Origin: Tubiluchus corallicola
Taxonomy: Eukaryota; Priapulida; Priapulimorpha; Priapulimorphida; Tubiluchidae
Length of the DNA: 64,000 bases
Direction: 5' to 3'
NCBI GenBank assembly: GCA_030141605.1
Contig: JAQGDQ010000156.1
Span: 62,001-126,000, forward strand
Each line of letters opens with the position of its first letter. Position 1 is the stretch's first letter. Shown piece by piece: positions 19,950 to 64,000 of the stretch. The notes below the pieces were generated by a model. The model saw only the letters and a program-made list of their open reading frames with translations, was not told the origin of the DNA and did no database searches. A program made the translations under genes and the position numbers.

Positions 19950-20205
19950 ATGAAGTATCAAAGCTTAGGAGTGATAATACTGTGCTATTTTAGCAACTTT
20001 GTTGTACAAATATCGGCACAGTGTCCTCAAAACTTCTACGGAGAGCACTGCTCTGTCTTCTGTGAGCCTGAAGACGGTTGTTCTGGTCATTACACCTGTA
20101 ATCAAGAAACAGGTGAAAAAGTGTGCTTGCGTGGATGGTCAGGTGAAGGCTGTGCGCAAAAAAGAGGGAATTTCTGGGCACCTGGCGTCAACGATTGTCA
20201 TTTAG
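19950..20205 (+). CDS. giant gene exon 1: signal peptide and DSL domain
   Basis: The ATG at 19950 opens a hydrophobic signal peptide (LGVIILCYFSNFVVQ). Then come CPQNFYGEHC, GHYTC and CLRGWSGEGC, the classic DSL framework. The mature chain starts almost directly at the DSL domain, so the MNNL domain of canonical Notch ligands is missing. An extra Cys sits in EDGCSGHYTC. Donor TTAG|GTAAAA, phase 1. Confidence 0.85.
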
Positions 20206-29200: not shown

Positions 29201-32200
29201 CTCTAACGTTTCTATCAAGTCAGTTCCAATCATTTATTTTTATCCCTGCCATAAAAACAAACACAAGTAATATCCATCTAAATGGGATGGGGTGGCGCAA
29301 AAACATAACATTGCTGAATCAGCCATCAATCAGTATGAATGACATACTACTATGCAGCTGACTTTTTCCCAAAGTGATAGAGTGGTACTTTGAAAATAAA
29401 GGCAATGATGACTGGGGTAATTAAGTATAATTCGGTGACCTGAACAGCCTGTCCTTTGGTCACAAACTAGATATCAGTGTGTTCGTAAGAATATTCAGGA
29501 GTAAGAACATACACAAATTAAATTATATGCCCTGGAAATCTACATCGATTAACTAAAACAATCTTACTTTCAGAAAAGAGACTAAGTCTTGCGAAATAGG
29601 ATAACCTTTCTGTGTTTCTTGTGGTACTGCTGTATAAGTTTCCACAAACAAATGATGTCAATGTCTTTTCAAAATTCAAATCTAATTACTAATGGTCAAA
29701 AATTTTTGTAATTATAAAATATTTTGTGAAGGTTCTTCTTCTTAAGTTAGGAAACTTTATACATCCCACTTAACTCATGATTCCTTGTACTTGAGTGGCT
29801 TTCCGTGAGATCATTGTTAAATTTACTCTAGGTCTGTAGTCTGTTAGAAACAAAGATTTAGCTAGATGTTAAATTGCTTTATGGATACTATGATCTGTCT
29901 CACTGAGCCACAACAGGAGGAGACAGTCTTTCAAATTTTTAGGATGGGTACTAGACCATTAAATTGTCCTAGTGTTTGTGGAAGTATCATTTATGAAATG
30001 CCAGTTAACTATGAGTACATGGGAAGCATTCGGGTTTGTGACAGTCTTCTTAGGATATATAGTATGTACATAATATTAATAAATTAGCATGAGTCATCAT
30101 ATTTGGAACCTTCTTCATAGTTCTTGTACTGCTTTTCACATCTATGAGATCCATCCACTAACTATGTAAACTTCAGAAAACTGACTAGAATGTAGGCCAT
30201 TTCTAAGTCTTTAACTGTTAAAGATTTGCCCTTCTTTCCAGTCATCACTATTTTGAATCATTCAGGAAGGTTTCCCCACCAGCATTGATTTGCACTACAA
30301 TTCAAAAACTGCAAGGGGCTTTGCAAACAAATTGTGCCGGATAGGGGCAAATTTTAGAGATATAGTCATCCAGTCAGTGACCTTGTGTAGGCCGCTTAAG
30401 GTCGGCAAAGCTAGTTTTCTGAAAAGATAAGTTTAAGAAGGCAAGTAAAAATTGAAAAGAGTTAGAATACCTTAGAATCAGAGTGAAAGCTGATCATTTT
30501 GCACTTCGATTTGCCAAATATATTATTGTCTTGTTTTTGCTGTGACGTGCAATGTTGCAGGACAGGGCCTGGCAGCCAATACCTGTTTTAACATTATGAA
30601 ATGTTTAAAAGTCATTGATATCTTAGCAGAGTCACTACCTATTCCAACTCCAGGAGGGCATTCAGGGTGACCTGTCTTATGCCTTGACAATGGCTGAGTG
30701 ACTTTCAGAATGACTGAGACATTCACATGCCAAAAACATTCATCATTTGTTTTGTTTATATATGCCTGGTATTACCTCCATGTGAAAATACAAACAATTC
30801 CTGCAATTAATTTATTATAATTGTTGACCTAGTTCTGACTCAGGAGTAAAAGAGCAGGGCAAAGATAAAACATTTAAGCTGATGTCCACCTTTCACTGCA
30901 AGACAGATATACTGACAGTTAGTTTTGGGGATGTTTAGATGGTTTATAATAAGAGACTGTCACAAAAAAGTGGCAGTACCTTGAAGCACAGCTGCATATT
31001 TAATGCATGGCAAACACTAGAGGTCATGTGTGTGGTGTATTAAGCGAGTAATGAACAGGTAAATTTTTTCACATTGACAATACTTGTAATTGTTAAAACT
31101 GCGCTGAATTTTGCATTGACAGCATTATGTTTGGTTTTTTTTTCATTGTAGGACATCGTTGTCAAAATGGAGCCACTTGTGTGTACCTGGGTCCTAGGCT
31201 GACAGACTACTACTGTTGTTGTGCGCCCGGATATGAAGGTTTGGAGTGTGCTCAAGAGATTGATGCGTGTGCTTCATTACCGTGCATTAATGGAGGCACA
31301 TGCAGAAAGAGGTCTCCTGGAGATTTCAGATGTGACTGTCCTTCTAAGTATGTACGATCTTTGACGTTTCTGCTCTTTAATGTAAGCCGGTTGACATAGC
31401 TAAGAATTTCTTTGTCTTTAAAAAAACAAGTGCGTCATTGTGCGATTGAGTATTTTGTGCTTGAATATTATCTGTTTAAATTAGGCCGAATTCAAAGCTT
31501 GGATTCCTTTTAACAAATACCTTTACTATGTAAATTGATTTTAACAAAAGAAAAATGTAGCCATAATATTCTACCTAAATTGCACCTTTTCTCCCAAGAA
31601 TTTAGATCAAGTTGCACTTAAACTCACGATCATTTTGAATAACTTGGATTTGAATGTAGGTGTAAATTATATCGTAACTTTTCGCTTTAAATTTGATTAA
31701 TAACTATGCAACATTGGTAACTATAAAGGATGTGCGAAGTCATGGGATGGTGTCACAAAAATTAATTGTCAAACAAAAGTTAGAATTGTCACTGTGAACT
31801 TATCTTTTTCAGAAATTTTGAGTTTAGTTAGAACTCTGATGTAAACCCTTTTTTTATTACGTTACTATTTTTCTGATTGGCACTTTTTTCATATAAGCCT
31901 GATAAAACAGAAGCAATTTTCCTGTTTAATTGCAAAGCATGTCATCAATGATCTTCACTCTGATGTTGTTTTTTCTATTATTCAGTTACTATGGACGACA
32001 GTGTGAACAAGATGCAACCTCTCTGTCATGCAACGACGCTCCATGTGAAAACAATGGCCACTGCACTGACACCAACAATGGTTTTAGGTGTCATTGTTTA
32101 CTTGAATACCAAGGCTTTACCTGTGCCGAAAAAATTACCTGTGTGGACGAACCATGTTTGAACGGTGGTACTTGTCAGGATGATGGCAGCGGCGGGTTTT

Positions 32201-38200: not shown

Positions 38201-40101
38201 AGCGGCCTTAATGGAAGATTACCGTCTCAAGCAGATCAGGTTTTAAGGGGTCATGGTCAACAAGCCGCACAATCAAATCTCGGATAGCCTAAAAGTTGAT
38301 CTTTGCTCTGACACTATTATGAGTCATTTATGTAGAAACCTTCTAGAACATCTAGATCTTTCCAAGCATTGCATTCATGAAACCTAGATTAGTAAAACAC
38401 TTTTTGTCTAAACTTATTGTTTTACTAAGTCTTTGGTATGCAGTTATATATAACTGAATAATAATTACTTAAGCTGTAATTCAAAAGAAGTAGATGTCAC
38501 AGAATGTGATGCGTGGCTATTAAGTTTTAGTAATGAGTTAAATAAATTTTGTTCGTAAATTAGTAATACTACATGCAATCAATTGACAGAAAGCTGTGCA
38601 CAGATTTTATATAGCCTTGGATAGTTCAAAATGATGTAACATTTTGGTGTTGGTTTAGTTGCGAGGATCCGAAAAGAGATGCGGAAATTTTCAGTTGATT
38701 ACTCAAGTTATTTATCTTAAATAGAAAGACATTTTGTTGATATAGCTGAGTTGGTTTTTCCTCAAAGTTCATTCTACTAACTGTATATAGGGGGCTCTCT
38801 AGCAAGTATTATTGTACTGTTTCTCGCGAGTAGCGACAACTACGACTTAGCTGAACCACACTCCCAGTTCTATCTCTGCATCCGTAAGCACTTTTAGTCG
38901 GATAGGATGCCATGGTGTGGCTTTGCATTGCTTTGAGTACTTTTGATTAATCTATCGTAACATTATCTCCGTTTACTACTCTAGATTGTTGTTTTGATGG
39001 TGGGCGTCGGCCGTCGATACCCGGCGTCGGTATTTTTCTCTAACCTTGACTTGCAGATGATTGTGTTGTAATAACAGCCCGTTGGCTAGCTAACAATTCA
39101 TGATACGTATGTGTAAACACAACAAGAACAAATTGTATAGTATTTTGTAAGAAAATTGTACGTGATTTAGCAGTTGTAGGACATTTGTGTGATTCATTGA
39201 CAATTAACAAAACTCATGGCACTGTAGTCAAGCAAAGTATCAAAATAGTTAGTACACCAAAGACAAACTCTCAAATTGATGCTTGTGCTACTTAATATTG
39301 AAATTTATAGGTGAGAGAAACAGCCAAGCAGTCATGTTGTCTGCTTGACACTGAAGTTAATTAACATTGGGGCCAGCTAGTAAGTGGATGGATAAACCTT
39401 TTTTAGGCATGTAAAAATGACAGTTTCATCTAGTATCCTGCTTCTGACTGGTTCTTTTGTTGAAGAAAAGCTATAATCATCCGAATGTGGTTAAGACACC
39501 TCAGATGGTTCAGTATCTCATGTCGCAGAATCTTTAACAATCATCTAGGTTCCAGTTGTACCTCAGCATGACGTTAACTTACACGAAAGAATTGATATGG
39601 CAGAAATGTTTGCATTATGTGGCTTGTTCTTTACTGTTACTTGCGTTTCGCCAGTCCCAAATTAGATGGACACTAGTGCCTGCATCTCGGAAACAAGTTG
39701 CACAAAAAAACAGTTGTAGCACTTCTCACTTCAGACATTGTTCAGTTGTGATGTAGCACACTCGTTTGACCTGTGCATGAGCACACCGTTAAACTTGAAA
39801 TTTGAATTTTAAACTTGGACTTTTCGTATTTGTACTTCGGTTTTGTTTTTGCAAACACGTGCATCAAAGTCGTGGATCGTTTGTGCTCGTGAAAATTACT
39901 GTGACGTCATCACTAATTGGGCTCGCCTGCCGTTAATAACCTATTATTTCATTATCAGAAAATAGGTGTTAAAATGTACACTTTTTACTGTACTTAGAAA
40001 TGCAGTAGGATATGAAAAATCATCCTATGTTCCTTTAACTATCTAAAATACATGACATTTTTGACCATTGTAAATATGTTTTTATGCTGTCGCATTTACT
40101 T

Positions 40102-40166
<65 letters not shown>

Positions 40167-49100: not shown

Positions 49101-52100
49101 TGGAAGACGATATTGTTTTCAGGTGTACAAAACTTTTTCTAGAGTATAAATTGCATTTTTTGAGTTATGGGAAATAAATTACATGTATTTTGATTAAATG
49201 GGCCATAATTTTTTATTTGAGTTAGACGAAATTTTGAGTTAAGCGATGTTTTTTTTGTGGGAAAAACGAAGAATTTTATCTGTTCTGCTGCAATTCTTTG
49301 AGTTAGGTGAAAATTTGAGTTATGCAATTTTGAGTTACGCGGAGTTTACTGTAATTACATATCATGTAATTAAGTAAGAGTTTTTTTTACATTTAATACT
49401 ATTCTTTTTTCTCACATTTACCATCTGTGAACTCATTGTTTGATTTTTAGCAACTGTATAAAAATGTAAACTTGTTTTTTTGTTGTTTTGTAGGTCCTTT
49501 TGAAATTCGAATGATGTCTGTTGAACCAGGTGTGGCTAAATTTGGGTAAGATATTTTCCGCAATTATTGTTTTAGAAAGTCATTTAGCCTATTTTGTGTT
49601 TAAATAAACAGATATATTTCCTAAGCTCTGTAATAATTGTAATAATAACTTTCTTTTTGGCAAAAATTTTTCAAATTCGCTTGTGCGACTAGGGATTTAG
49701 AAAGATTTACAGATTACCGTGTCAAAGCCATATTAAGCGTTTTATTGATTTGTACACCCAATCAGGTCTCTTGGACGTCTTGGAATATTTGGTGATTTGT
49801 TTCAGTAATTTGCACTGTGCCAGTTTCTTAGTCTACATTTTATTTTTACTTTTTCAATTGTTTTTATTTCTATCAATAATGTTTTCTTAATCTTTCAGGT
49901 TACCTATAACAATAGTTTACTATGCAGTTTATCAGAATGGAAGACTTGAAATTCCAGACACACGTTCTGCACCGCGTGTTAAGCAACTGCAAAATGAATT
50001 GGATGGCATATATAAGTAAGAACGCATTTTCAATTTAACTGTGTATGATATCTTGATTTAGCTACTGTGTTCTGAAAACTGTTTATTGTAATGCAAATGG
50101 GTAATTAATCAACCTCAGCAAATTGTGATTCGTGGTGTATTGATTTATTTGAGTCTTAGTTTCAAGCTGGTAGCAGTCGGTAGTTGTCGACTTTACAACC
50201 CAATCACACCTTAATTAATTAATTATATAAAACTAATAGTAGCTCATATTTCCTTCTTTTTTAAGCAAATTTATTTTATATCGCCATAAGTTTCGATAAA
50301 TTAATCCATATGCGCTGCCATACTTAGCATGACTGTAACAAACGTACAACATCTTATGCGTAGAGGTGCACCACTTGAACATACGGGTTGGACTTGCTTC
50401 CAAACTTTCTAACGATCAATTCGCCAGAACCATATTTGTGGTCGTAAGTCGACGACTACCAGTATCAGTATTTATGTTAAGGATATTAAAAAGTTTGAAA
50501 CTCCTTTTACTAAGCCTGAAATTGCACCTTTGATGCATCTAATGCCGATATTTTGCATATAATTTCATAGTTCCAGGATGACATTGCAACATTTGTTCCG
50601 ACAACTAAATCATATGCATACTTTTCTAGATTGTACGATGGCGATGATGTTGAAAGACTGGTGCAATCGTATGATCTTTACATTCGTGGAAATCCGCAAG
50701 ATGTATTTGAAAAACGAGCAGACTTGGTGAATGCTGTTGAGAAAGCTTGGTCTTGTAAGTTACTAGTACTGTAGTTTTATTTGTGTTATTTTGTCTTGTT
50801 GTGTTAGCAGAGCTCTCAAGACTAATAACCACTACTAGTAGTTTTATTTGTGTTATTTTGTCTTGTTGTGTTAGCAGAGCTTTCAAACTAATAAAGGCTG
50901 ATAAAATCCTTGAAATGTGGAAATTAATACAGGACTTCTTATTAAGCTTGTTGTTGTCATTCTAGATTATAGGAGCACAAGAATTTTACATTGGCATTGA
51001 GTAGCCGTATATTTTCACTCACATTTTTTGCCATTCAAGTTTTGGTGAGGAGTTATGGAACCAGTCTCTACAAGTTAAAAGCGATAACTACTTCTGTCGT
51101 TACCCTAAGCTGGTGTGCGACTTGCTTGTGGCAGTAGCTATAAAAACTAATACTGTATTACGTTGTGAACAGTCAGCCCTGGATTAACCATTAAACAAAA
51201 ATAAGCACATAGTTGGGGCCTCAGGAGAAGAGGGGCTCGCACAGTGTTTTTTCAATTTGAATATTTACACTATAGTAAGATATACTGGAATATGTGTGGC
51301 AGTTTTTGTAATAAACAATATGACGGTACGGACCTAAGCTGTTCACTGCCTATATGATGACAATGATTTCTTATATAATGTGTCATAATATAAATTAAGA
51401 ACTTATAAGAACATATAAATAAGAACGTGCTTATAAGAACGTGGTGATACTGAAAACAGGATAATGTTGCTGTTGACTGCATGTAGTTTGTCACATGGTA
51501 GAGATGATGACTGGATGACTATTGTAAATAAATCTTACTGTACATTTTTTCATTTTGAAAGATAACATTTTATTCTACAGCTTAATGTTGTTTTTATTCT
51601 AAATTACACCTCTTTGGGGTACAATAATCTTTTCAGTGCTAAAGGCCTCTTGAGATTTTAATCCGACCTGTGGATAATACATATACGGGTACGAATATAA
51701 TGAATTGTAAATTAAAGTAGTCGTTTTGATTGCAGTGTATTTTCCCAATTCTGATGTTGAAGTTGATGTGCAAAGATATGAACCATATGTCACAAGATCC
51801 GGGTAAGTGTCAAACCTTATCAAATTTATTAAAAGTGGAATCAAAAACCATAGTACATGACCTGAAGACAACTGTCTTTGTTTTATTTCAGCATTGAACA
51901 AACCCGAGTTGTGTACTTTCTAATGGTGAATGACTCATTAGTTGACTCAAGAATCGTACTACAGCCCAAGAATCGGTTTTTCGCCGATTTCTTAAATGGA
52001 GTTAACTTATCCGGCTGCTTTAACTGTCAACTGAGGAAGCAGCGCGAAATTTACATCAAGAACACAGCTGGACTTGAGCCGGACATGCTTCTGGAACTTC

Positions 52101-55100
52101 AAGGCTCCCTAGCAGAAGCTTGGGATTTATCTGATCCTGGTAAGTGAATACCGTGATCCCTAAAAAATTTTGTGCAACCTTTTTATTTTAGATAAAACAT
52201 TCAGGCGTCTATTTTCCTTACACTGTTAGAATATGTGATAATGATTTTTTTGCTAAATATTTTTCCTGTCTAAACTGCTGTACCAGAATTATGCTTTAAT
52301 AATCTACAGCACAGCAAAATAACAAAGTAAAGCAGTTCTTCTCTGCTCTTAATTTTTTCATGTTTACTGTAAACAATTTCTATTGTGCGTAGAATGTCAG
52401 TGTTATTAATCCTTTGTTATTGATGAATTTATTCCAGCATCAGTCGATTTGAAAGATCCAGAATACAACTACCTGACAAAAGATTAGTAAGTTTTTGTGC
52501 TTTTGTTCTATTTAATTTCATGAATTTCAGTAGCTTTTCTTTCCTTCAAAACGTTAAAATCTTTGTGTAATGAAAATCCATAAAGATGTTTTAAGACTAT
52601 GCTAATGATAATATAATAACAATATGATATGCTTCTATATGATATTTATTTTTCCGATAATTATTGCTGTTTTGTTAGCGTTAATGTTAATGCAGAAGTT
52701 TTATTAATGCAGAAGATTAAGCATTATCGCTTTCATGTCAAATTTAACAACTTTCAAAAAACTATATCACTTATCTAGTGTATATTAAATTCATACTGCA
52801 AGACACCTGCAACTCCAGATAATTATTATTTAAGAAGTAGATGCTCATTACAGTATCATTATTGTTCATAAATTTCCATTTTTCTGATTTTCGTTTTTAG
52901 TATAAAATTGTCTCATTAAGTTGTAAGTATCTACATTTTTTAAAAAACTGGCTATAATTTATAACAAACCAATGAATCTAAAGACTAACTGTCATCATCA
53001 GTCATCTGAAAGGTTCAATTGTAGTGTTGCGTAGTTGATTAGAAATGCATTTGTGATTTTTTTTTAGTGAGGACGTTGCAAAAGTTCCATACATCTTGAC
53101 TGTTGACGAGAATGATCCCAACAGATACCTGACGCCAACAAATTTAAAAGAAATATTATCAAATGACGGTAAGCGCCTGCGTATTTCATGTAGACACCAC
53201 AAATTGCAATATATCTGAGTGTTATATTTATCAGCAAGTTGTAACTTTGTATCGTTTACTGTTTTGATTTCAGACCGACGTCTGTCGTAATATCTTCGTT
53301 CTGTGATAACCTTTGGTTCCGCTTCTGAACCACTCAGCCACTATGCTTTTCACGATCCATTCTGGGTTCGAATCCCACTCTTCTTTTCTAAGTTTCTACA
53401 AAAATTCTGGCTGCCTTTCTGTGCCCATTTAGCCTTAATGGAGCACTTACTTATGTACTAGGTGAAAAAGACAGCCAAGCAGTAGGCCTAGTGTGCCTAG
53501 ACTTCACAAGTAGATGTTGTAACCATCTGTACCTGCACTACACCATCTTCCTGTTTTATCTTCTTCTTCTTCTTACCAGCTTTTCCCTATGCGGGGTCGC
53601 CGTTGTGAATGAGTCTTCTCCACGCATTCCTGTTGTTGACCATCTCTTCATTTATGTTCTTCTCTCTAAGGTCTCCATTAATACATTCAATCCATCTCCG
53701 CTTGGGTCGTCCTCTTCTTCTATTTCCCAGCACTTCCATTTCCATGACCTCCCTTCCCACATGATCTTCACCGACTCTTCTTTTCAGGTGTCCACACCAT
53801 CGCAATCTTGCGAGGCTTTCACTGCTTTTACTGTTCCTCTGATATTATTATTTCTAATTTTATCTGTTCTTGTTATTCCCACCATTCATCTCAACATCCT
53901 CATCTCCACCACATCCATTTTCTTCTCTTCGGTCTTCTTTAGAGAAGCTGCTTCCACTTTGTGGAGACTCATTCATAGAAGGTTTTGGCGCAGTTTTTAC
54001 AGGCGGATGCCCTTCCTGACCCTAACCCTCCCTATTTATCCGGGCTTGGGACCGGCACTGAGTTGGACTGGCTTGCCCTCCCCCCCCCCCCCCAGTGGCT
54101 AGGTTCCCATCTTCCTGTTCTATAATTACCTTTAATTAAGCGATGTATAGTTGTAATAATCAGAGTTTGTTTCTTTCGTCATCATTTATTGATATGATTC
54201 TTATTTTGCTTTGTATAGGTTTTGAAGTTTGTGATGGACTAATAGACTGTGAAGTTCAGGAAATGTTTATGCTGAGTGTTGATGCTTCAGCTCAAGATGC
54301 TGAGGCTGAGGAATTAAATGATGCTATGCAAAATGCCTGGGAAAATAGTAAGTGTTTTCCCTTTAGGCTGCTAAATTATAAGTAATTTACTGATGAAATT
54401 AGTTTAAACAGTTTAGATAGAGTTGTTTAACGAGAAAGCATTATTTTTAATTTGATTCATGTGTGTTTATTTACTTGCCTAGGTGTGCTGGAAAGAGGCG
54501 TACCTGTGCAGGTGCAATTCTATGACAAAGTACCTGGATTAATCAGCTCTGATGGGTATGACATAATAAATCACTTGATCCTCATATGCTTAGATAAAAT
54601 ATATTAATCAACTTTCTATATAATTTAAATTTAAGTGTGTTGCATATCACAAGGTAATATTGTGTGGAAGGTGAAAAGAGCAGGCGTATGCGCTTCTTTT
54701 TTTTGTTTATGTTTAATGATTTTCAATTTTTTATTACAGAATGTGACTTGTGATCTTGTCATTGTTTTACAATTATGAATTGAACATGAGAATTTGCACA
54801 AATAGTGCTGCCGCCATGCAGCAGAAATTACAAAAACTGACGGAGCCCATGTAATTAATACTTACTCGTTAACACAGTTTATGGTTTAATGGTTGCGTTT
54901 TCATTTTCATAGAGAGTTTGTTGACCGGTATAGCTACTTTGTCACGGTGGACGACTATGACTCTCACTTACTTCATGTCTGGCCGCCTACAAAGACGCAA
55001 GTTGGTGCTGCGCTAGCGCCAACTGGTGTCCAAGTATGTGACAGCTGTGATGATGTGTTTTCTGCTTTTTACGTGCCTATACTTGGTGCTGCAAGACTCG

Positions 55101-58100
55101 ATGATCTTCCCGTTGAAAAATGGCGCGAAGTCATTCGACAGGGATACTTCCGGCAATACGAAGGTGTGGTTCTTGCAGTATTTTTTGTCATGGTGATTGT
55201 TTATTGATGTAGTCAGTCTAAACTTCCTTGTCTAAGCTTGATAGTGCACATAGATTTCGTTCTAATGATTCACTTATGGTTAACTTAATGTTGTTAGTTG
55301 ATACGTTTGACTGTGTTTTCGTTGGACAATTTGGCAACTCTGCTGCTTATTTCACTTAAGATTTTTAAAATTCAGTTATGAAATCTTATTAAGCGTACTT
55401 ATTTCTTTTCAGACGGAATACCACCTGTTAGCAAAGGTTGTTTTGTAGACAGACCTCGTTTACGGGATTTATCCGTGCGATTACAGCTTCGACCAGCCAC
55501 CGCTAGTGAATGCGTTCAGCTGTGCAGTCATTATAACTACACGTATGCTGGCATACAGAATGGCGGAGAATGCAGATGTGGGGACACGTTCGGTAGATAT
55601 GGACCGTCTAATGTCTGCAATTTGCCATGTGTTGTTGACAATGCCGTAACGTGTGGTGGAATAGATGCTAATGAAGTGTTTTTTACCGGCAGTAAGTTTA
55701 CATCGTATTTTGTAAACTAAACAGTTTTGTAAGTGACCAGGTGTCAGCGGGCAAACTATGATAAATGAAATTCATAAATCATGAGTGTTGTTAAAAAGAT
55801 TAGTAATGCAGTTAAATACGGAAAGAATTTTTACAAGCTTTGGAACAATTTGTAAACAAATTTCACGATAGTGAAATGAAAAACATTTGTTTAATGCAGG
55901 ATTATTTTTGTTACCGATGATAATTAATTCAGTGTTTGTTTGTTTGTTTTTGCAAGATATCAACAAGTTAGATGTTGACATTGGAAATCCACATTTGTTT
56001 ACGTCACGATATGGGTAAGCAAATAATGTGTTGTTAATATTTTAAGTGATTATATTTTTAATATAATCGGTCATTTAAAAACTCAAAAACATTCCTGTCC
56101 TATTTAAATGTACGTAAAAAATGTCTGCAATTGACTGTACTTAAAATAAGGCAATTGTGTGTGTTGAAAGAGCTTTTATTACTTTTAGGTCATCTTTACT
56201 TCACTTTGGCACTACAATATATGTAGAAACAGTCATGTTAAGTACCGTTTTGTTTGGAAGCAAATATGTTTACCATGTGCTGCTAGCTAGCGGTTTTGCT
56301 TTTTGAATTTGTCACCTGCTCGTCTGCTGCAATTAATCTCATTGCCCAAGAGCTTACGGAAGCTACAAACACATGCTTAGTGGTTTCCTTTTGAATCTCT
56401 TCCTACTTTTCACAGAACGTTTAATCAGTTAACTGCTGTTGTTGTGCCATCGATGAAGCGGCAGTAATCTGCTAGTATTCTTTGTAACTTTTCAAGTATA
56501 AATATCATGGAGATACTAAGAGCACCGAGTTAATTTTGGCAAATAGAGCATAAGCATAAAAACCTAACATAACCTGTCACAGTGCATACTAAGCTAAAGA
56601 ATGATGACTACTGCTTCCATACTAGTGTTACTACATTCGTCAATTAATAGATCCATTTAATTAATTGGGTCACAACTCTCTATCCCAAAGTGAGTTTATT
56701 AAGCAATGGCTACTGTTTGGTAGCTATTTTTTACTACTAAGCTATTTTTGGAACTATAGTTGTTGTGTTACACTAATCACACTTAACTCTATAACGATAA
56801 TAGAAAATTAAATCAAAAATTAAGAAATGTATTATTTGTCGTCAAACTAGCCTCATGGACTTATATATGTATTTGCAGAACTCAAGTAACTCTTCTCTTC
56901 TTCAAAGTGTCGGTTGGTCAGGAAATTTTGCAGTCTGGTGTGGCGCCGCCTACTGGCCAACTGTTTGCAGAAGAAATTCTCGGGCAAAGCGAAAATTACA
57001 AGATTGTACCGGAAGAAAAAGGCGCATTGTTTGATCGAGAAAGGGCTTTCAGTTACTACGTTTATGGTGATTTAGACAGATTTGATGCGCACACTCTGGG
57101 TCGAAATATACAAACGACCATTCAGAGAGGTCTGGGCACGGACACGTCGGTGTTGGTACAGTCACAGGAGCCGTACTTTCTTCCCGACACTCGGCAGACG
57201 GTGACAAAGTTGTCTTTCCTTATCACTGTAAATGGTCATTTGTTGGACGGTCGCTTTCCACACGACGATGTCACTGATTTGATTACAACGACAATTAATT
57301 TATCGCCCTACCGACTGTGCGACTGCAGTCCGGTGAAAGTGCGGACACTTCGGTTACATGGTGATTATGATCCAGCACTTGACCCGGCTTTACGTACGGC
57401 TATTGTAGAGGCATGGAGAGGCGCAAATCCAGGTACAGAACATACTTGAATTAGCATTCATTTTTTCCACACGCGTTTTTTATTGTCGTTTCGTTTCTAA
57501 TAGAGAATTAAAAAGTATGAGAGTAATTTTTATCCATATAATCATTTTGCTATATTTACTGCATGAGAATGTTAAATCTGTTGTATATGTCTTGCATTTT
57601 TTTTATTTTGCCGAATAGGTCTGGATCTCAATTACCAAGTTGCATTTTCTGGCTATGATTCGGCAAATATTGTGAATAGTGTAGGCTTACCATTAACTAC
57701 AGTCAGCTACCACATCTCAGTTGATGATCAAGAACCAGAGGTACACGGAGCTAGTGTGCCATCAGCAATAATCCTTGATGGTGAGGCTTATTAAATCATT
57801 TGCTATAGCAGGGTGGATATATGCCCTAAATGTGAACAATTATGCATTTTGTGCCTAGTTTTTGCAGTTTGGCATGTAGTTAGACATGAACATAAGGATT
57901 TTAACCAAACGGTTAGGTCTAGTGGTAACGCGTTCGATACAATGGCCGAGTCATACCAAAGACTTTAAAATTGGTACCTGCTGTTGCCCTGCTTGGTGTG
58001 CTGTATTTAGGATAAAAGTGGGATAATAATAGTCTCTGTCACATAGTTGTAGGTTGTTGTTTATAGTCGGCCCAAAAGCTCTTCGCAGCTTATGTTAACT

Positions 58101-61100
58101 GTTGGTCCAAAAAGTCGACTTTAAATAAAGATTAATATTATTATACTAAAAACCATCACAAGCAATATCGACAGAACGTCATTGTATTTGATATGGTACA
58201 GCAATATATTGGTTCATCTAACCGTTTTAATTATCTTAATTAATAACTGGAATAGTTATGTATATTTTGTAATAGATTTGCTTCTCCTGTTGAACTGCAC
58301 TCCTGTGAATTTTGCAGCCAGAGGCAACTTGATCAGCATTTATTTGCTGTTTGCCAAAAGGCAATTATTTCAAATAAATATTTATAAAAGATATCGTCAG
58401 AAATAACTTTACCTCGTTAGACAAAAAACTCACGTGTTTATAACAAATGATATGAAACTGAATTAACTACTGCAATACTTTCAATATACCGATACCACCA
58501 GTAAAGCTGCATTAGCACTAATATGACTAATCTAGTCTCACATATGACTTTGAAAATAGCCTTTAAGAGAAAATGTCCTTAAAAACATGAGCAACTAACC
58601 TTATTCATCAGTTTATCGTGTATATATGTTACGACATTAATGTTATTACTTCACATTACTGTCGTTCTAACTTTTGTGTATAGAAGACCGACCACAGGTT
58701 GCTTGCTATGGTTTCTGAAAATGATGAACCCATTCCTACTTACCTGCCAAATTACAAAAACTAGGCACCAAGTGCATAACTCTTATGAATTTCCTCTCCG
58801 CTACTAGATGTTGTACATCTGGTCAACTCTATGGTTATTATGGATAAATATCTTTCAAACCTTAATAGTTGTAAATTGAAAATTAATAGCTCAAGAATTT
58901 ATAGCATTGATTTGGATCTGAATGAAGAAGTCGGGATTTTGCTTTCCAGATGAAATTCAAGCAACTATGCAAGCAAACATATATAATCTTGTTTAAAAAT
59001 ATTAAGTATTTAATGGCTTTTATTTTTAATGTTAACGTTATTTCAATGTAACTGTTAGTGCTATTAAGTATAGATTGTTATAGCTGGTTTGTGTAGTTAT
59101 CTATTATTCTGTAAACTTTTAACCTTTACTTGTTTTTTTATAATTTCACATTTTTCTTACTTACGATATTTATTTTAACAACATTGATTTTGTCTACTTT
59201 TTGTCTTCTAGCTGCACTTCGCAATGCTGGTTTACCTGTCTGCACTGACCCCTGCTATTCTACAAAACTGTACAATGTAACTGTTCCTGGTACTGCATCG
59301 CCCAGCACTGTAAACAATATCGTCTACTACATACAGCAAGCTTGGCAGCAACCGGAAATACCAGTAGATGTTAATGTGATCGCACAAGATCTGGGTTTCA
59401 CCGATATAGGGTATGTCTGTTATTTCTGTTGTCATTTATCTTAAAGCATGGCAGGATGATTTTTCATATACTACCTCATTTTCAAGTCCGATAAAAAGTA
59501 TACATTTTAACACAATTAATACTGCAAAAGCTTTTCTGATAATTAAATGATAGATTAAAATCTCATTTAACTGCAGATGAGCCCGACTATCGATGATATC
59601 ACAAACTAACATAATTTTCTACAGCAAAAATATTCCACGAGCGTGTTTGCGAAGGCAAAGATTAAAGTACAGTGCTACTGTAAGATATTCAGTGTGTTGT
59701 ACTAAAACTAGGCAAGTTTTAAGATAAAAATTCAAATTTCAATTTTACTGCTGTGCTCACGCATGAGCTGTTGAATGTGTGTACTTCATCAGAAACTAAC
59801 ACATCTGAAATGAGAGGTACAGCGCCTGTTTTTTGTACAACGCCTTTCCGAAGTGCAGGCGCTGGTGCCCGTCTAACTAGCGAATAGCAAAATGCATGTA
59901 ACAGCGAAGAACTAGTGGTGCGGATGCGAAATTGTGTTTGTGAGGTAATAATTCTTTCTCGTAAGTCATTTTTGGAAAAAACTGTATGTTTCTTTCCAAT
60001 ATTTTAAAGAGTTGATTGTTTTGACCTACAGCTTAAGATTGGGCCCGGTTTTGCTTTTTAAAAAAAAAATTATGTTTGGTAGTGTCCAATTTTTGCATCT
60101 TAAGGCTTACCAGTTAATTTTCTTTTTTAGACAAAAAGTTATAGTCATCCGATATGCGGTAGTAGCCGGTGGTGTTGACAGCGGTAATGCTGAACTGCTT
60201 GTCCCTCCCTCTGACGGGCAAATCTCTGAGGCTATCCGAAGTGGAACTGGTGTTGTTCCCATATGTGTAGGACACACAGCCGGACAGTCGTGTTCTGGTG
60301 GACGATACTACACTTTCTATTTGGAAAAACCGAGTTTGAGCGAAACCGATATTCGAAGATTGTTGAGAACTCTTTATCTGAATCAATTTCCACAGCTTCG
60401 GTTCAGAAATGTGCAGGTCGTGACGAGCACAGATGACGGACACACGACAAGCGAAGGAGTTCCAGCAACAAGAGTGGTCTATACCATCCTGGTCGACGGC
60501 CGGTCATTCCAGCCACGCAGACCAATACCCAGCAATGCTCTGAAATCAGCATTTGAGAGAGAGGGTGGCAAGTTGAAGTATGAATCCGATGGCGTTTATG
60601 GAAATCATGAACAGTTTGTTGTTTACTTTAATGGATCGGTTAACTCTGGTAATGCGAACCAAGTCCTTAAGGGTATCTGGAATCATGTGTTTAGTAACTC
60701 TACTGTTGATGTGTATGTTCGCCAAGCAGACGAGGAAACTACACCCGAAGGGTAATGTATCAACTTAATGTTTACACTTAATGTTTATAAGCTTTAAACT
60801 GACCAACTGTCAATATTCTCACACCATACAGTAATATTATGTCTCATACGTTATCGTTACCATAAAAGAATTAATTGTGCTGCAGTGGCCTAGAGAAGGA
60901 AAGCCCACTGTCATGTGAACCACAAAGTATTTTCTGTCCTGTGTGATCTAACCTTTCTCCCTGTTTTTTTTTTGTTCACTCATTAATTCATTTTCTGTCT
61001 AGTTCACATGACAGTGGGCTTATGCAAGCCTTTGCTTATCTAGCCCACTGCAGTATAATTATTCTTTTATGATAACGATAGTGTGTGAAATATAATAATT

Positions 61101-64000
61101 TATTACAGTATTGTGTTACAATTTTGATATCACCATGTACTGACTGTTACTATATTGCACTGAATGTGATAATAATAAAAACTTCAAAAAAACTTCAAGA
61201 ACATAAAGAAAGATTAGAACACACAGGAAAGAAAGAAGGATGTGTTATTGGAAGTGGTGGGAAGAAAGACAATAAATCATGTGATATTTACATTGACTCT
61301 AAAAATTAATCAATGATTTCTTTTATGTATAATCTGTACTGGGGCTGTGGTATGGCTGCTGCAATAAGTATAGGGTATTAAAAATATTATATTTATTGAA
61401 AGCCATTACTTTATATGTTTTTTTTTGTATTGGCTAAATTGTTTTTAGTTAATCATTTATGCCATTCCAAAGCGCAGGACCGACGATTGCAATGAATTGC
61501 CATGCCACGTCTGTTCTACAGAAATTAATCACAAACTCATTCATTCTGATTGCGTAATGTCAATTACTAGGTTGAGCTGGGTTATCAAAGAATGTTTGAA
61601 AGAGTTAATATTTAGTTTCATACATGTATATAGCAGTGTTCATTAGTTTTTAATCATTAAAATGTTGTTAGTTAACTTTATTAATGCTTGCTGTACGGGT
61701 TTGGTGTCACATCTGATGAAAGTTATTTAATTTTTTAATTGATTTGCTTTGTTATCTTTTATTTACCACTTTTAGGACATGGGTATTTGACATATTAATA
61801 CTAATTTATCATACATTTTAATTGCATTTGTAAACTGGGAAATGAAGTTTTCTTGGTTTGCTTTACTGTGACTTGATAACGATGAAATTTAGACTAAAAT
61901 TTTCAATTTCAGATTTGTGATTACGAAAGTTGTGTACTTTGTTATTGTCAACGATCACGTGCTCAATCCTGACTTGACGGAGAGAAACGTAGCCGATTTT
62001 ATTGAGAGACAAGTAAAGAGTGAATCAACTGTTACTGCCGTTAGGGAAGTTGTCGTTAATGTTCCCGCAGAAGAAGTCGTAAACAAGACTGTCTTTGTGA
62101 CGGTGGTGCGCAATGCCTGGGAACTGGCTAATCCCGGTATTTACTAATCATCTTAGAAAACATTAATTCTAAAATTACATTTTTCTAGTAAATTTTAAGG
62201 GAATATAGAAAATTTCTCTTTATTTAAGTTACCTTTACAACATGGGCGACTTTGTTTAGTAGAATAGTGCAATTGTTTTTGTGCATTAGCGAATGTGGAG
62301 ATTTTTATACTTCACATTAATTGTCCTAGGATCCGAAGCCTCAGTCAACGTTACATCTGAACAGATTGGTGTATCCGACACGGGCAGTCCTGTTGTCATT
62401 ATCCGCTATGTAGTGCTTCTCGATAGACAAGGTCATATACAGGAATCAGCACCTCCTAGTAGACAGTTATTGGCTTCATTGCTCACCAATAATCTGGGTT
62501 TGACACTGTGTGATGACTGCGATGTCTCGACGGTAATTCGTCAGATGATTTTATTTATTAGGTTATGCTACATAGTAAAATAATATAGAATTGAAAGCAT
62601 GATTTTACGTGTTGGCAACATGTTGTCCATATTCATGATTCAAAGTGAAATCATTGTAATTGCCCGTGTACACTATAATATCTTATACATTATTATACAC
62701 ATTATTATGTATACATGGCCGATTTCCATAACAAAGTACATTGTTTCGATACTCAAGTTTAGTATGCCATTTAAATACCTTTGGCTTTCACAAGTTCACT
62801 CATGCACAAGTTTAGTTTACACATAGTTCTATTGTAATATGATAGCGATTACAATATGGCTTGAACAAGACAGTTTTACGATTGACAGACGTTTTCCCAA
62901 TGGCACATACCTTTTAGAAATCTGCAGACAATAAACGAACAGTAGACGCATTACAGTATGACTACTAGCAGTATAGATACATACGTAGCATTAATGTTCA
63001 GAATAAGAATAATATTACTATGTAAACTAATACAATAGTTAAAAGTGTTTAATAAGAAATGCAAATTTCTGTACAAGCTTAAATACTTGAATATTAACAG
63101 TTACATGCAGATGATGATTGCCATGAAGAAGCAGATAAACGAGTTCATTTGTTGACAGATTTTGAATTCTAATATTATGAGGAGTCAACAAAGTACTAAG
63201 TTTGTTTAGTAAGATATCTTGAGCCTGGTGATATAAAGAGCAACTAATGCAAAAGTTCAAGTGAAAATTAGGTCAGTTTTTATCACTCCTTATTCTTAAC
63301 GTTAAAATGTTCTGCGGTCGACAACAATAGAGATGACTGAGTAAATGAGAAGATTATTTTATGGCATTACTATAAAACCTTGAAAATTTTGTTTCTCTTT
63401 TTCAGGTTAACACGTTGTTTATTGGTTCTCCCACGTCTCAGATCAGCTTCAATGATTTGAGGAGTGCACTGAGCCAACTCTGGCAGGCTAACAATCGTCA
63501 GCGTCTTTCAGACGGTAACTGGCAACTACTGCTGACAAATTGGACGACCGGTTATCTTTCCAAGACATTTCAACCGGCCGTTCGTGTTTCATATACGCTC
63601 AGCCTTCCACCGAATGTACCTGAAGACAGTCTCATCAGACCTTCGGCCGGACAAACAGCAGCTGCTGTTCGCAACTTGGATATGGAGCTTTATCCGGCTG
63701 ATCAAATATATGAGAAGCGATATCAGTTCATGAATGCCATCCCCGGACAAGTGGACATTGTCGCAGCTGCCCAAAAACTAATTCGTGCCTGGGGAAGGGT
63801 TAAGCCTAATCAAGGTGCTCGGGTGTATGTTGTGAATGTTGCTCCAGCACAGCAACCTGATTTAACCATAGCTGATTATTATCTATTTCTGAATGACGAC
63901 GATATTGTGTCGCCCACAGACGTCTCCCCGGCCGAATTTGCAGAAATGTACCGCTATTTGAGAAGTTCGGAAGATATCATTACAATTCCGCATGCGGTAA
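19950..64000 (+). CDS. giant secreted DSL-EGF-(TSY repeat)-novel module-WSC protein, whole gene span (at least 32 exons, 3' end outside window)
   Basis: Joined exons give at least 2,524 codons with every junction in frame. Layout by residue: signal peptide 1-23 (cleavage likely in QISA|QC), DSL domain about 24-69, EGF-like domains about 80-325, Thr/Ser/Tyr repeats about 326-790, then modules of a repeated domain from about 795 to the end, with one WSC domain at about 1568-1650. No transmembrane segment is seen before the window ends, so secretion or a later membrane anchor are both possible. Each module has a strand like YxVxVNG, a Pro, helical Leu-rich parts, a C-x(n)-C pair and AW-x(n)-NPG. 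Introns alternate phase 1 at NPG and phase 2 before the strand. DSL domains are known from Notch ligands, WSC is a Cys-rich carbohydrate-binding-type extracellular domain, and EGF arrays mediate adhesion. The repeated module I do not recognise. The function is inferred only as extracellular structural or adhesive. Confidence 0.85.
22050..22290. repeat. dispersed repeat, copy 1
   Basis: It matches 23455-23715 in the same orientation. Shared blocks include TTTCGCG-GATAGTGGAAAGA, CATTTTGGTGCAGTTGTGG and ATTATTGCTATCATTATAAT. Confidence 0.7.
23045..23106. repeat. (TA)n/(TG)n microsatellite
   Basis: Alternating TATATA and TGTATA runs inside intron 1. Confidence 0.8.
23455..23715. repeat. dispersed repeat, copy 2
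   Basis: Same repeat as 22050-22290, with a small insertion before the shared ATTATTGCTATCATTATAAT block. The downstream edge merges into the palindromic TA-rich region. Confidence 0.7.
23725..24205. repeat. compound inverted repeat around (TA)n
   Basis: A segment with CTTTAAAATCTTCAAAG and TCGAAGACACGAGC is followed by two partial inverted copies (GCTCGTGTCTTCGA near 23930; GCTCGTGCCTTCGAA and CTTTGAAGATTTTAAAGG at 24043-24098), separated by TATATA runs. It could fold into a long hairpin. The ORFs here are by-products. Confidence 0.7.
24625..24728 (+). pseudogene. 5S rRNA-like or 5S-derived SINE fragment
   Basis: AAGTTAAGCAACG, then a GGATGACCACCAGG-like segment and CAATAC, resembles the internal promoter region of 5S rRNA (AAGTTAAGCA ... 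TGGATGGG-GACC ... CCTGGGAATAC). The sequence is too diverged for a working 5S gene. Confidence 0.4.
25583..25800. mobile_element. fragment of hAT family A
   Basis: It shares TTTGGTAAAA, GCTAATTTGGTTTGCAA and TATTTTTATTGACAAA with the element at 1706-2056, same orientation. The right end is missing. Confidence 0.6.
31152..31347 (+). CDS. giant gene exon 2: EGF-like 1 and most of EGF-like 2
   Basis: The acceptor TTCATTGTAG precedes 31152. Joining to exon 1 gives NDCHLG-HRCQNGATC, a normal EGF start. The second EGF reads CINGGTC. Donor TCTAA|GTATGT, phase 2; the next exon completes CPSNYYG. Confidence 0.9.
31986..33698 (+). CDS. giant gene exon 3: EGF-like 3-6 and Thr/Ser/Tyr repeats
   Basis: Acceptor TATTATTCAG; donor ACGAG|GTTTGT, phase 2. 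Four complete EGF-like domains (CENNGHC, CLNGGTC, CRFGGTC, CAPWAEC) and a half domain (CAPGYGGERC) are followed by a long Cys-free region. That region has about 20 motifs Y-x-T-S-Y/T/F, such as RYITSYVTSFINPQAVDPT twice in tandem and RSTRYITSTITLD. A 5' stretch before 31986 is also open but is intronic. Confidence 0.9.
33878..34020 (+). CDS. giant gene exon 4: end of TSY repeats
   Basis: Acceptor TTTTCACAG; donor CTTG|GTAAGT, phase 1. It encodes VLTSTVQPDAVTSYYTTTV, then a Pro/Ser-rich spacer, continuing the repeat style of exon 3. Confidence 0.85.
34394..34467 (+). CDS. giant gene exon 5: Pro/Thr linker
   Basis: Acceptor TATGTGTAG; donor CCA|GTATGT, phase 0. It encodes QRTPTPPDQTIRATPTLP and more Thr/Pro, a mucin-like linker ahead of the module array. 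Confidence 0.75.
35226..35355 (+). CDS. giant gene exon 6: first (divergent) module
   Basis: Acceptor TTATTTTAG; donor CCCAG|GTATTA, phase 1. It encodes RPFVIPGLVLYLSGN (strand), IPDVIDLIKRGW (helix) and MENPG, the first copy of the strand-helix-NPG pattern. Confidence 0.8.
35433..35661. mobile_element. Tc1/mariner-type small element
   Basis: TA-flanked inverted ends: CAGGGTGTTGCAAAAGAA at the left; the right end in reverse reads CAGGTTGTTGCAGAAGAA. Length 229 bp, no ORF. Confidence 0.75.
37299..37371 (+). CDS. giant gene exon 7: module linker
   Basis: Acceptor TTTTACAG; donor GAGG|GTAAGC, phase 2. It encodes LQFGRFVPFEVEINEAT and NPRG. Short exons like this recur between an NPG intron and the next strand. 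Confidence 0.8.
40104..40185. repeat. (AAT)n microsatellite
   Basis: About 25 AAT units with one interruption; it produces a poly-isoleucine ORF that is not a gene. Confidence 0.9.
42025..42357 (-). pseudogene. possible processed pseudogene or antisense terminal exon
   Basis: An open frame of about 110 codons on the minus strand ends in stop at 42025-42027, with AATAAA a few bases beyond. Residues such as CSTQGLPRQMPETELEAR and LLGQGMTLSESRNFSA are protein-like rather than AT-rich noise. No start or acceptor is certain and no family was recognised. Confidence 0.4.
42595..42672 (+). repeat. tRNA-derived SINE head
   Basis: A B-box GGTTCAAATCTAG is preceded by an A-box-like GATCAGGTAGTCAC at tRNA spacing. 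The arms do not pair well enough for a tRNA gene. Confidence 0.45.
43635..43760 (+). CDS. giant gene exon 8: module strand, GC donor
   Basis: Acceptor TTTTTTCAG. It encodes QDVIMVIYTVKTTDAAG, then LPPLR across the junction. The exon ends TTAAG|GCAAGT, a GC-AG intron: the frame and the domain pattern continue perfectly into exon 9. Confidence 0.85.
44591..44640 (+). repeat. short interstitial telomere-like repeat
   Basis: GGATTAGGGTTAGGGTTAG followed by degenerate GAGGTTGAGGTTAGGGTTAA: about seven TTAGGG-like units in intron 8. Confidence 0.8.
44939..45045 (+). CDS. giant gene exon 9: module helix and AW-NPG
   Basis: Acceptor TCTTATAG; donor CCCG|GTGAGT, phase 1. It encodes VLDSYDVYITWPWTSSL and LNDAWIKANP, the AW/NP motif of the module. 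Confidence 0.85.
45088..45297. repeat. 34-bp tandem repeat next to a splice donor (6 units)
   Basis: Units close to CTCACCTTCGTAGTGAGT plus AAACCCTGATTTACTT, 34 bp apart. Each has a small hairpin (CTCAC...GTGAG) and a donor-like GTGAGTAAA. The array starts about 40 bases after the true donor of exon 9, GGTGAGTGG. Confidence 0.85.
45456..45483. repeat. (ATG)n microsatellite
   Basis: About nine GATGAT triplets in intron 9. Confidence 0.85.
46024..46093 (+). CDS. giant gene exon 10: Cys-pair linker
   Basis: Acceptor TCTAATTTAG; donor GCGG|GTAAGG, phase 2. It encodes LRGCIDCLRFEVQRIEPY, with the C-x2-C pair typical of the module. Confidence 0.85.
46254..46360 (+). CDS. giant gene exon 11: module strand
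   Basis: Acceptor CTATTTCAG; donor TTTTG|GTATGA, phase 1. It encodes EQVLQIRYFVFLNGDLVTQN, a clear YFVxLNG strand. The in-frame stretch upstream is intron. Confidence 0.85.
46732..46930 (+). CDS. giant gene exon 12: module helix region
   Basis: Acceptor TTTTTAG; donor AATGG|GTGAGT, phase 2. It encodes RRYAYRFPLYIKGTVYEVDF, RMRDALQQVW and a linker ending FVDSNG. Confidence 0.9.
47132..47491. mobile_element. non-autonomous hAT-type element (family A, inverted copy)
   Basis: The left end CAGGGCCGGAT and the segment GCTAATGAAATTGTGGG match the reverse of 1706-2056. The right end is AATCTGGCGCTG. Flanks TCTTTTAA and CCTTTTAT match at 6 of 8. Inside intron 12. Confidence 0.7.
48409..48683 (+). 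CDS. giant gene exon 13: complete module in one exon
   Basis: Acceptor ACATTGCAG; donor CAAA|GTAATT, phase 1. It encodes TQMVYFLNISDVTWPASL, INRAIRSIIRP, YMTVKEIGDAVANHW, then LRAALRRQWAIQH. The terminal NPG is replaced by HQS, and no Cys pair is present. Confidence 0.85.
48803..49351. mobile_element. pogo/Tigger-like small element
   Basis: TA-flanked ends CAGTAAATTTCGCGTAACTC and, in reverse, CAGTAAACTCCGCGTAACTC; 549 bp. Internal GAGTTAxGCxA motifs repeat near the right end. No transposase. Confidence 0.8.
49494..49545 (+). CDS. giant gene exon 14: module linker
   Basis: Acceptor TTTTGTAG; donor TTTGG|GTAAGA, phase 2. It encodes PFEIRMMSVEPGVAKFG, equivalent to the linkers of exons 7, 10 and 17. 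Confidence 0.85.
49899..50015 (+). CDS. giant gene exon 15: module strand
   Basis: Acceptor TCTTTCAG; donor TATAA|GTAAGA, phase 2. It encodes LPITIVYYAVYQNGRLEIPD and a helix (VKQLQNELDGIY). Confidence 0.9.
50630..50754 (+). CDS. giant gene exon 16: module helix and AW end
   Basis: Acceptor CTTTTCTAG; donor GTCTT|GTAAGT, phase 1. It encodes VERLVQSYDLYIRGNPQD and LVNAVEKAWS. Confidence 0.9.
51736..51802 (+). CDS. giant gene exon 17: module linker
   Basis: Acceptor GATTGCAG; donor TCCGG|GTAAGT, phase 2. It encodes YFPNSDVEVDVQRYEPYVTR; the Glu-Pro-Tyr also occurs in exons 10 and 26. Confidence 0.9.
51892..52139 (+). CDS. giant gene exon 18: complete module with CxxC
   Basis: Acceptor TTATTTCAG; donor CCTG|GTAAGT, phase 1. 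It encodes TRVVYFLMVNDSLVDSR, FADFLNGVNLSGCFNC, then LLELQGSLAEAWDLSDP. This is the cleanest single-exon example of the module and the best query for a profile search. Confidence 0.9.
52438..52486 (+). CDS. giant gene exon 19: short linker
   Basis: Acceptor TTATTCCAG; donor GATTA|GTAAGT, phase 2. It encodes SVDLKDPEYNYLTKD, 49 nt. Confidence 0.85.
53068..53168 (+). CDS. giant gene exon 20: module strand
   Basis: Acceptor TTTTTTAG; donor GACG|GTAAGC, phase 1. It encodes EDVAKVPYILTVDENDPNR and a helix. Confidence 0.85.
53284..53545 (+). repeat. tRNA-derived SINE-like sequence
   Basis: A B-box GGGTTCGAATCCCAC near 53370 is preceded by a tRNA-like stretch (CTTCTGAACCACTCAGCCAC). The tail includes GTGCCCATTTAGCC and AGCCAAGCAGT. 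It abuts the LINE fragment in intron 20. Confidence 0.5.
53556..54105 (-). mobile_element. 3' end of a non-LTR retrotransposon (LINE)
   Basis: On the minus strand the ORF at 53805-53587 encodes the C-terminal tail of a reverse transcriptase (RWCGHLKRR, GRPKRRWIECI, AWRRLIHNGDPA). Upstream, after a frameshift, residues like TRTDKIRNNNIRG belong to the same family. It ends with a (GAA)n tail near 53560. The element is 5' truncated and dead. A poly-C run lies at its far edge (54078-54094). Confidence 0.75.
54219..54347 (+). CDS. giant gene exon 21: Cys pair and AW end
   Basis: Acceptor TTGTATAG; donor AATA|GTAAGT, phase 1. It encodes FEVCDGLIDCEVQEMFMLSV and LNDAMQNAWENS; the Cys spacing here is C-x5-C. 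Confidence 0.9.
54483..54555 (+). CDS. giant gene exon 22: linker
   Basis: Acceptor TTGCCTAG; donor GATGG|GTATGA, phase 2. It encodes VPVQVQFYDKVPGLISSDG. Confidence 0.9.
54913..55163 (+). CDS. giant gene exon 23: complete module with CDSC
   Basis: Acceptor TTTCATAG; donor CGAAG|GTGTGG, phase 1. It encodes RYSYFVTVDDYDSHLL, VQVCDSCDDVFSAFYVP and VEKWREVIRQGYF. The AW motif is altered. Confidence 0.9.
55413..55691 (+). CDS. giant gene exon 24: WSC domain
   Basis: Acceptor CTTTTCAG; donor CGGCA|GTAAGT, phase 1. Cysteines follow the WSC order: GCFVDRP, ECVQLCSHYNYTYAGIQ, GGECRCGDTFGRYG, CNLPC, CGG, then FFTG. WSC domains are Cys-rich extracellular domains linked to polysaccharide binding. It replaces nothing in the array; it is inserted between two modules as a single symmetric (phase 1-1) exon. 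Confidence 0.9.
55957..56014 (+). CDS. giant gene exon 25: linker
   Basis: Acceptor TTGCAAG; donor TATGG|GTAAGC, phase 2. It encodes INKLDVDIGNPHLFTSRYG. Confidence 0.85.
56879..57432 (+). CDS. giant gene exon 26: two modules in one exon
   Basis: Acceptor ATTTGCAG; donor CCAG|GTACAG, phase 1. First module: TQVTLLFFKVSVGQEIL, FSYYVYGDLDRFD, a linker with EPYFLPD. Second: KLSFLITVNGHLLDGRF, LCDCS and IVEAWRGANPG. The linker intron expected between the two is absent. Confidence 0.9.
57619..57780 (+). CDS. giant gene exon 27: linker plus strand
   Basis: Acceptor CCGAATAG; donor GATG|GTGAGG, phase 1. It encodes LDLNYQVAFSGYDSANI and TTVSYHISVDDQEPEV. Linker and strand are fused without the usual intron. 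Confidence 0.85.
57905..58142 (+). repeat. tRNA-derived SINE-like sequence
   Basis: An A-box-like GGTCTAGTGGTAACGCG opens the element. It continues with TTGGTACCTGCTGTTGCCC and GTAGGTTGTTGTTTATAG and ends in an AT-rich tail. Located in intron 27. Confidence 0.5.
59212..59410 (+). CDS. giant gene exon 28: Cys pair, AW end and linker
   Basis: Acceptor GTCTTCTAG; donor TATAGG|GTATGT, phase 2. It encodes LPVCTDPCYSTKLYNVTVPG, VYYIQQAWQQP and VDVNVIAQDLGFTDIG. Confidence 0.9.
60131..60751 (+). CDS. giant gene exon 29: two modules in one exon
   Basis: Acceptor TTTTTTAG; donor GAAGG|GTAATG, phase 2. First: QKVIVIRYAVVAGGVD, CVGHTAGQSC, RRLLRTLYLNQFPQ. Second: RVVYTILVDGRSFQP, a charged loop, HEQFVVYFNGSVNSGNA and LKGIWNHVF; the latter lacks the Cys pair. 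Confidence 0.9.
60829..61108. mobile_element. Tc1/mariner-type palindromic element
   Basis: TA-flanked (60827-60828 and 61109-61110) inverted ends CAGTAATATTATG and ATTTATTACAG. Long arms include TATCGTTA-CATAAAAGAA, CTGCAGTGG and AGCCCACTGTCATGTGAAC in inverted form. Length 280 bp, intron 29. Confidence 0.8.
61913..62136 (+). CDS. giant gene exon 30: complete module
   Basis: Acceptor CAATTTCAG; donor CCCG|GTATTT, phase 1. It encodes ITKVVYFVIVNDHVLNPDL and VTVVRNAWELANPG. No Cys pair; otherwise it matches the consensus well. Confidence 0.9.
62330..62532 (+). CDS. giant gene exon 31: linker, strand and Cys pair
   Basis: Acceptor GTCCTAG; donor GACG|GTAATT, phase 0. It encodes VNVTSEQIGVSDTG, VVIIRYVVLLDRQG and LCDDCDVST. 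The phase-0 exit is unusual in the array. Confidence 0.9.
63406..63996 (+). CDS. giant gene exon 32: about two and a half modules (may run past window)
   Basis: Acceptor CTTTTTCAG. It encodes LRSALSQLWQANN, VRVSYTLSLPPN, KLIRAWGRVKPNQG and ADYYLFLNDDD, open to the window edge. GCG|GTAA at 63996-63997 could be a donor, cut off by the window. There is no ATG near its start, so simple ATG-based ORF finding misses it. Confidence 0.85.

Follow-up and report, generated by a model that had tools for sequence, protein, structure and literature searches.

The window, that is, the whole 64,000-nt stretch analysed here, taken from positions 62001-126000 of contig C1901 in a 343.5-Mb animal assembly, holds on its forward strand, between positions 19,950 and 64,000, a chain of 32 exons amounting to 2,523.3 codons, as judged by codon statistics and splice sites. 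The first-pass annotation had counted 32 in-frame exons and at least 2,524 codons, which our own chain reproduces, and all 31 junctions within the window are phase-consistent. A further 110 kb of downstream sequence was added, with numbering above 64,000 extending the window coordinates, and the same reading frame was found to extend another 104 kb past the window end. Exons were chained using a codon model trained on clear module open reading frames together with splice sites scored with a general metazoan matrix; doubtful splice junctions were settled by hand after automatic chaining, and the chain was rechecked exon by exon. The entire phase-consistent chain comprises about 84 exons encoding about 8,000 amino acids with no internal stops, and spans approximately 148,000 bases, from 19,950 to about 167,970 in extended coordinates (contig 81,950-229,970). 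Three candidate gene ends, the window edge, 104.9 kb and 110.5 kb, were each overturned by further phase-matched module exons, and finally by an exon encoding a transmembrane (TM) helix. The features along the chain are as follows.

19950..20205, +: exon 1, with the ATG, signal peptide, DSL domain and start of EGF1 (Pfam DSL, sequence read)
31152..31347, +: exon 2, remainder of EGF1 and most of EGF2 (Pfam EGF; phase 1>2)
31986..33698, +: exon 3, end of EGF2, EGF3-6, a half EGF and Thr/Ser/Tyr repeats, the latter at about 32,560-33,698 (Pfam EGF)
32641-32783: 57-bp tandem repeat in the Thr/Ser/Tyr region of exon 3
33878-34020 and 34394-34467, +: exons 4-5, Thr/Ser/Pro-rich mucin-like linker
35226..35355, +: exon 6, half-unit (beta1-alpha1) opening the SEA-like array (weak unit profile match, E 0.05)
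37299-37371, 43635-43760 (GC-AG donor) and 44939-45045, +: exons 7-9, SEA-like units
46024..50754, +: exons 10-16, SEA-like units (held-out profile matches)
51736..55163, +: exons 17-23, SEA-like units (held-out profile matches)
55413..55691, +: exon 24, WSC domain as a single phase 1-1 exon (Pfam WSC and genome scan)
55957..62136, +: exons 25-30, SEA-like units (held-out profile matches)
62330-62532 and 63406-64087, +: exons 31-32, first regular three-unit super-repeat of about 300 aa, exon 32 spanning the window end
102679-104824 (extended coordinates), +: exon of 2,146 bp bearing an LDLa domain (Pfam LDLa E 1.6e-7)
112016-112070 (extended coordinates), +: beta2 exon of 55 bp, picked by hand
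158609-158678 (extended coordinates), +: small exon, picked by hand
to 162194 (extended coordinates), +: last module exons
163353-163435 (extended coordinates), +: TM exon, RWLIPVIIVIAVIAVVLILALAVALWKR
165927-166295 (extended coordinates), +: tyrosine-rich tail exon
from 167952 (extended coordinates), +: short final exon

The 10.9-kb join between exons 1 and 2 is credible because exon 1 ends in a phase 1 donor after the DSL domain and the residues NDCHLG, and exon 2 resumes with HRCQNGATC, the two together giving a normal EGF. At 43760 two module exons are brought into phase by a GC-AG intron with a perfect AAG/GCAAGT donor. A profile was built solely from units at 63-94 kb; since the exon finder ran without this profile, its matches constitute an independent test of the joins. 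In three stretches, 45-62, 102-104 and 121-162 kb, it recovered held-out units, and many of these were spliced from two to three exons. Matches included 44979-46314 (E 1e-4), 46776-48523 (E 9.5e-9), 48617-50010 (E 9e-5), 50724-52009 (E 4.7e-5), 54293-55036 (E 1.5e-9), 57396-59258 (E 4e-4), 60336-60617 (E 2.8e-6), 60615-62033 (two exons, E 8.6e-11) and 160381-162068 (three exons, E 3.5e-8), while 50 shuffles of the protein, scored against the full unit profile, gave nothing better than E 0.003. The exons at 112016-112070 and 158609-158678 are among a few small ones that were picked with the pattern in mind, and profile matches are absent from window exons 4-8 and from exons 56-60 and 62-67, which are based on their splice sites, fitting phase and weakly similar sequence. 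Within the window, exons 7-9 are the least certainly joined.

The domain order reported from the first pass, namely a signal peptide, a DSL domain, six and a half EGFs, Thr/Ser/Tyr repeats and modules interrupted by a WSC domain, was found again, and Pfam searches bear out its named domains. The DSL domain (PF01414), which starts at residue 25, immediately after the signal peptide, scored over the cut-off (E 3.7e-13 and 6.9e-12); EGF was matched in five stretches (E 2.1e-23), where six and a half can be read by eye; and the WSC domain was matched at E 9e-15. A hydropathy scan with a 19-residue window detected two strongly hydrophobic stretches in the 8,000 residues, the signal peptide and the TM helix, with no second signal peptide or TM helix inside the chain. 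The phase-consistent joins, the module homology across junctions and this lack of internal signals agree with the earlier proposal of a single giant extracellular product, and we consider it likely that the whole chain is one gene with a continuous transcript.

Several introns hold other genes, and the locus would thus be a hard test for gene predictors. One intron contains a survivin-like (BIRC5-like) BIR gene at 114125-114721 (-) and a glutaredoxin exon at 116539-116730 (+), on the strand of the giant gene. An intron of 27 kb contains two nearly identical tandem CLCA-like genes, at approximately 129400-139000 and 141100-153400 (-), each with a CLCA N-terminal domain, a VWA domain and a TM segment (all in extended coordinates). 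Within the window, an intronic open reading frame at 53590-53844 (-) resembles the terminal part of a reverse transcriptase from a non-LTR retrotransposon and had no Pfam match. Upstream of the gene, at 18023-18948, lies a long CAA/CAG-rich 26/75-bp tandem array that is open in several frames on both strands; other tandem arrays occur at 5157-5498 (eight copies of 42 bp) and 45093-45293 (six copies of 34 bp).

Since introns of up to 27 kb hold whole other genes, the chain could represent two or three neighboring genes. The first would encode a secreted protein with the DSL/EGF head and a SEA-like array, ending at about 112 kb; a membrane protein of the same modules would follow from about 121 kb, with perhaps a third gene from 155 kb. 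The same-strand glutaredoxin exon (116,539) and the BIR gene sit between the two parts, the following gap contains the two CLCA-like genes, and a weak candidate signal-peptide exon at 113613-113662, MCLILAIIYCYLLLEG, has a phase at its end that would fit. However, exon 120982-121259 begins in the middle of a unit, at beta3, and the fitting 55-bp beta2 exon at 112016-112070, with the right phases, precedes the nested genes; the first product would moreover be left without a membrane anchor. We regard such a split as unlikely.

The array between the mucin-like linker and the TM helix consists of about 60 copies of a unit of approximately 100 amino acids. At the exon level it appears as a super-repeat of about 300 amino acids comprising three units, mostly encoded by an A1 exon and an A2-B-C exon with a phase-1 end at NP/G. 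We had considered the 300-amino acid A-B-C block as the module, and rejected this because the block is a super-repeat of three units, against which the fold unit is shifted by half its length. Folded together with paralogs, a single unit gave an AlphaFold model with pLDDT 92, pTM 0.81 and a beta-alpha-beta-beta-alpha-beta order, and a three-unit stretch gave pLDDT 86. The ends of the array match this fold unit, its first element behind the Thr/Pro linker being beta1-alpha1 and its last, just before the TM helix, beta4. By tblastn, a search that is weak for diverged units, the module was not found in the genome beyond the giant locus.

Structural comparison of the single unit by VIA-align placed the PCDH15 membrane-adjacent domain MAD12 (6bxz) first (Z 6.9 over 98 residues, rmsd 4.0), followed by ACE2 617-728 (Z 5.5), the MUC16 SEA domain (5.2) and Gpr126 (5.1), and the longer model matched CDH23 MAD28 (Z 7.0) and Nup54 (Z 7.1). 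The protocadherin-15 and cadherin-23 domains are treated as SEA-like, SEA being a ferredoxin fold with poorly conserved sequence (PMC6586460). The unit very probably has a SEA-like (ferredoxin-like) fold, according to these models. The prediction speaks for the fold but not specifically for SEA ancestry, since unrelated ferredoxin-like enzymes, HMG-CoA reductase (Z about 6) and PheRS (about 7), score equally; Foldseek alone returned nothing significant for the module model (best E 0.012). In sequence, the units had no Pfam SEA (PF01390) match, hhalign gave a probability of 0.3% against a partly approximate SEA profile of three sequences, and PDB searches with the module yielded nothing useful. 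A Pfam SEA scan of the genome had no match anywhere, controls included, and MUC1 picks up MUC16-type SEA only at E 0.013; SEA domains are so divergent that these negative sequence tests say little. The module, called unfamiliar at first, has no Pfam or PDB match in sequence, but its predicted fold is a familiar one.

Other domains have been inserted into this array. The WSC and LDLa domains each lie within a unit at one and the same site, the alpha1-beta2 loop, where a phase-1 intron recurs. The unit at 73440-74015 contains a Ser/Thr/Pro tract of about 100 residues, and Ser, Thr and Pro make up at least 45% of residues at aa 560-800 and 3480-3640. WSC domains are common in this genome, a scan giving 85 exon matches, many of them clustered on contigs C1831, C1176 and C2250. 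A search for Hox genes points to a protostome, by what we read as a UbdA-like tail, without narrowing this to a phylum, and a search with COX1 found no mitochondrial contig.

The last SEA-like unit (aa 7726-7801) is followed by the TM helix (aa 7845-7870), a basic stop-transfer stretch and a tyrosine-rich tail of about 130 residues. As read from these residues, the protein is quite probably membrane-anchored, and because the chain extends to a TM helix and tyrosine-rich tail, a type I membrane protein is the most likely reading, rather than a secreted matrix component. The SEA autoproteolysis motif G-SVVV was not found in the protein; one GSVL occurs in a unit hairpin and none near the membrane. 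No cadherin repeats were found.

A matrix, tunic or cuticle protein, as had been suggested at first, is weakened by this ending. Thr/Ser/Tyr repeats and WSC domains are found in wall or matrix proteins, and both features would suit a secreted product whose main isoform lacks the anchor, but the strong TM helix, the basic stop-transfer stretch and the tail speak against it, and we judge this unlikely.

The DSL domain raises the question of a Notch ligand. At the five positions of the Jagged1 DSL domain that contact Notch (F199, R201, R203, D205 and F207; PMC3415683) the giant protein has F, E, E, G and S, keeping F199 alone, and its signal peptide leads straight into the DSL domain, with no MNNL sequence separating the two. 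The other DSL domains of the genome, at four loci, retain R203, D205 and an aromatic residue (F or Y) at 207. Two nearly identical Jagged-like DSL exons lie 19 kb apart (C1377:1584 and 20762), as a tandem copy or an assembly duplication. With four of the five contact residues missing and no MNNL domain, a canonical Notch-ligand role for the head is doubtful. That the protein is a Notch-pathway ligand or decoy whose head binds Notch at a distance is improbable, for although its DSL domain passes the Pfam cut-off, EGFs follow directly and a C-terminal TM helix is present, the altered contacts and the missing MNNL domain count against it.

The best overall explanation, to which we give a probability of about 0.6, is a single gene for a giant tethered protein with a rod-borne DSL/EGF head. 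The domains and their order, the phase-consistent chain, the predicted fold and the single TM helix outline a single-pass type I protein of about 8,000 amino acids, in which a signal peptide, a DSL domain, EGF1-6 and a half EGF, and a Thr/Ser/Tyr-rich mucin-like stretch would be followed by about 60 tandem SEA-like domains with WSC, LDLa and Ser/Thr/Pro insertions, the TM helix and the tail. The SEA-like array may form a long glycosylated rod that keeps the head far off the epithelial membrane. The head, aided by the putatively sugar-binding WSC domain, would touch the glycocalyx, the cuticle or a neighboring cell, and the membrane-proximal SEA-like unit might pass load or shedding to the tail, which may signal. 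This model is drawn from what tethered SEA mucins and tip-link cadherins do, and the chances of an adhesion or barrier function seem about even.

Tethered-mucin traits are present, namely Ser/Thr/Pro tracts, a SEA domain near the membrane (by fold only), a TM helix and a tail. Like MUC16, the protein is giant and single-pass, with Ser/Thr-rich stretches, tens of SEA-fold domains, one such unit by the TM helix and a short tail, although its Ser/Thr-rich share is presumably much smaller. It differs from MUC16, which has 56 SEA domains (PMC5927449), in its DSL/EGF head, its WSC and LDLa insertions and units without sequence relation to SEA, where GSVL occurs once and is not the SEA cleavage motif. 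Protocadherin-15 and cadherin-23 are likewise long rods ending in a ferredoxin-like membrane-proximal domain (PMC6092121), but they have one such domain after cadherin repeats, whereas here the domain is repeated about 60 times. Delta and Jagged share the signal peptide, DSL domain, EGF repeats and TM helix, but the giant protein has neither their MNNL domain nor a visible Jagged VWC, has lost the Notch contacts and carries a 7,000-residue SEA-like array. Cnidarian DSL-only genes (PMC2770060) also place DSL outside the Delta/Jagged order, but their descriptions are of DSL repeats, in one gene together with MNLL, and not of SEA-like arrays or WSC. Glycerotoxin (EGF, two WSC and CCP; PMC5336659) was rejected as a relative, its order being different and neither DSL nor the array being reported for it. 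A literature search for a protein combining SEA, DSL and WSC found none, and the first-pass view that the domain order is unlike any named family is supported, the order likewise not being recognised in our analysis.

At somewhat less than even odds, the protein could represent an undescribed class of giant cell-surface proteins, with a DSL/EGF head on about 60 new SEA-like domains and further domains grafted at the alpha1-beta2 loop, at a phase-1 boundary. The insertion of WSC and LDLa into the same loop illustrates cleanly how exon shuffling can place a domain inside a fold, and the units are a well-modelled domain family absent from Pfam. The DSL domain would be placed outside its usual Notch-ligand setting and, if this reading is true, a rod built from tens of SEA-fold domains, as in MUC16, came about with a tip of another kind, that of the Notch ligands.
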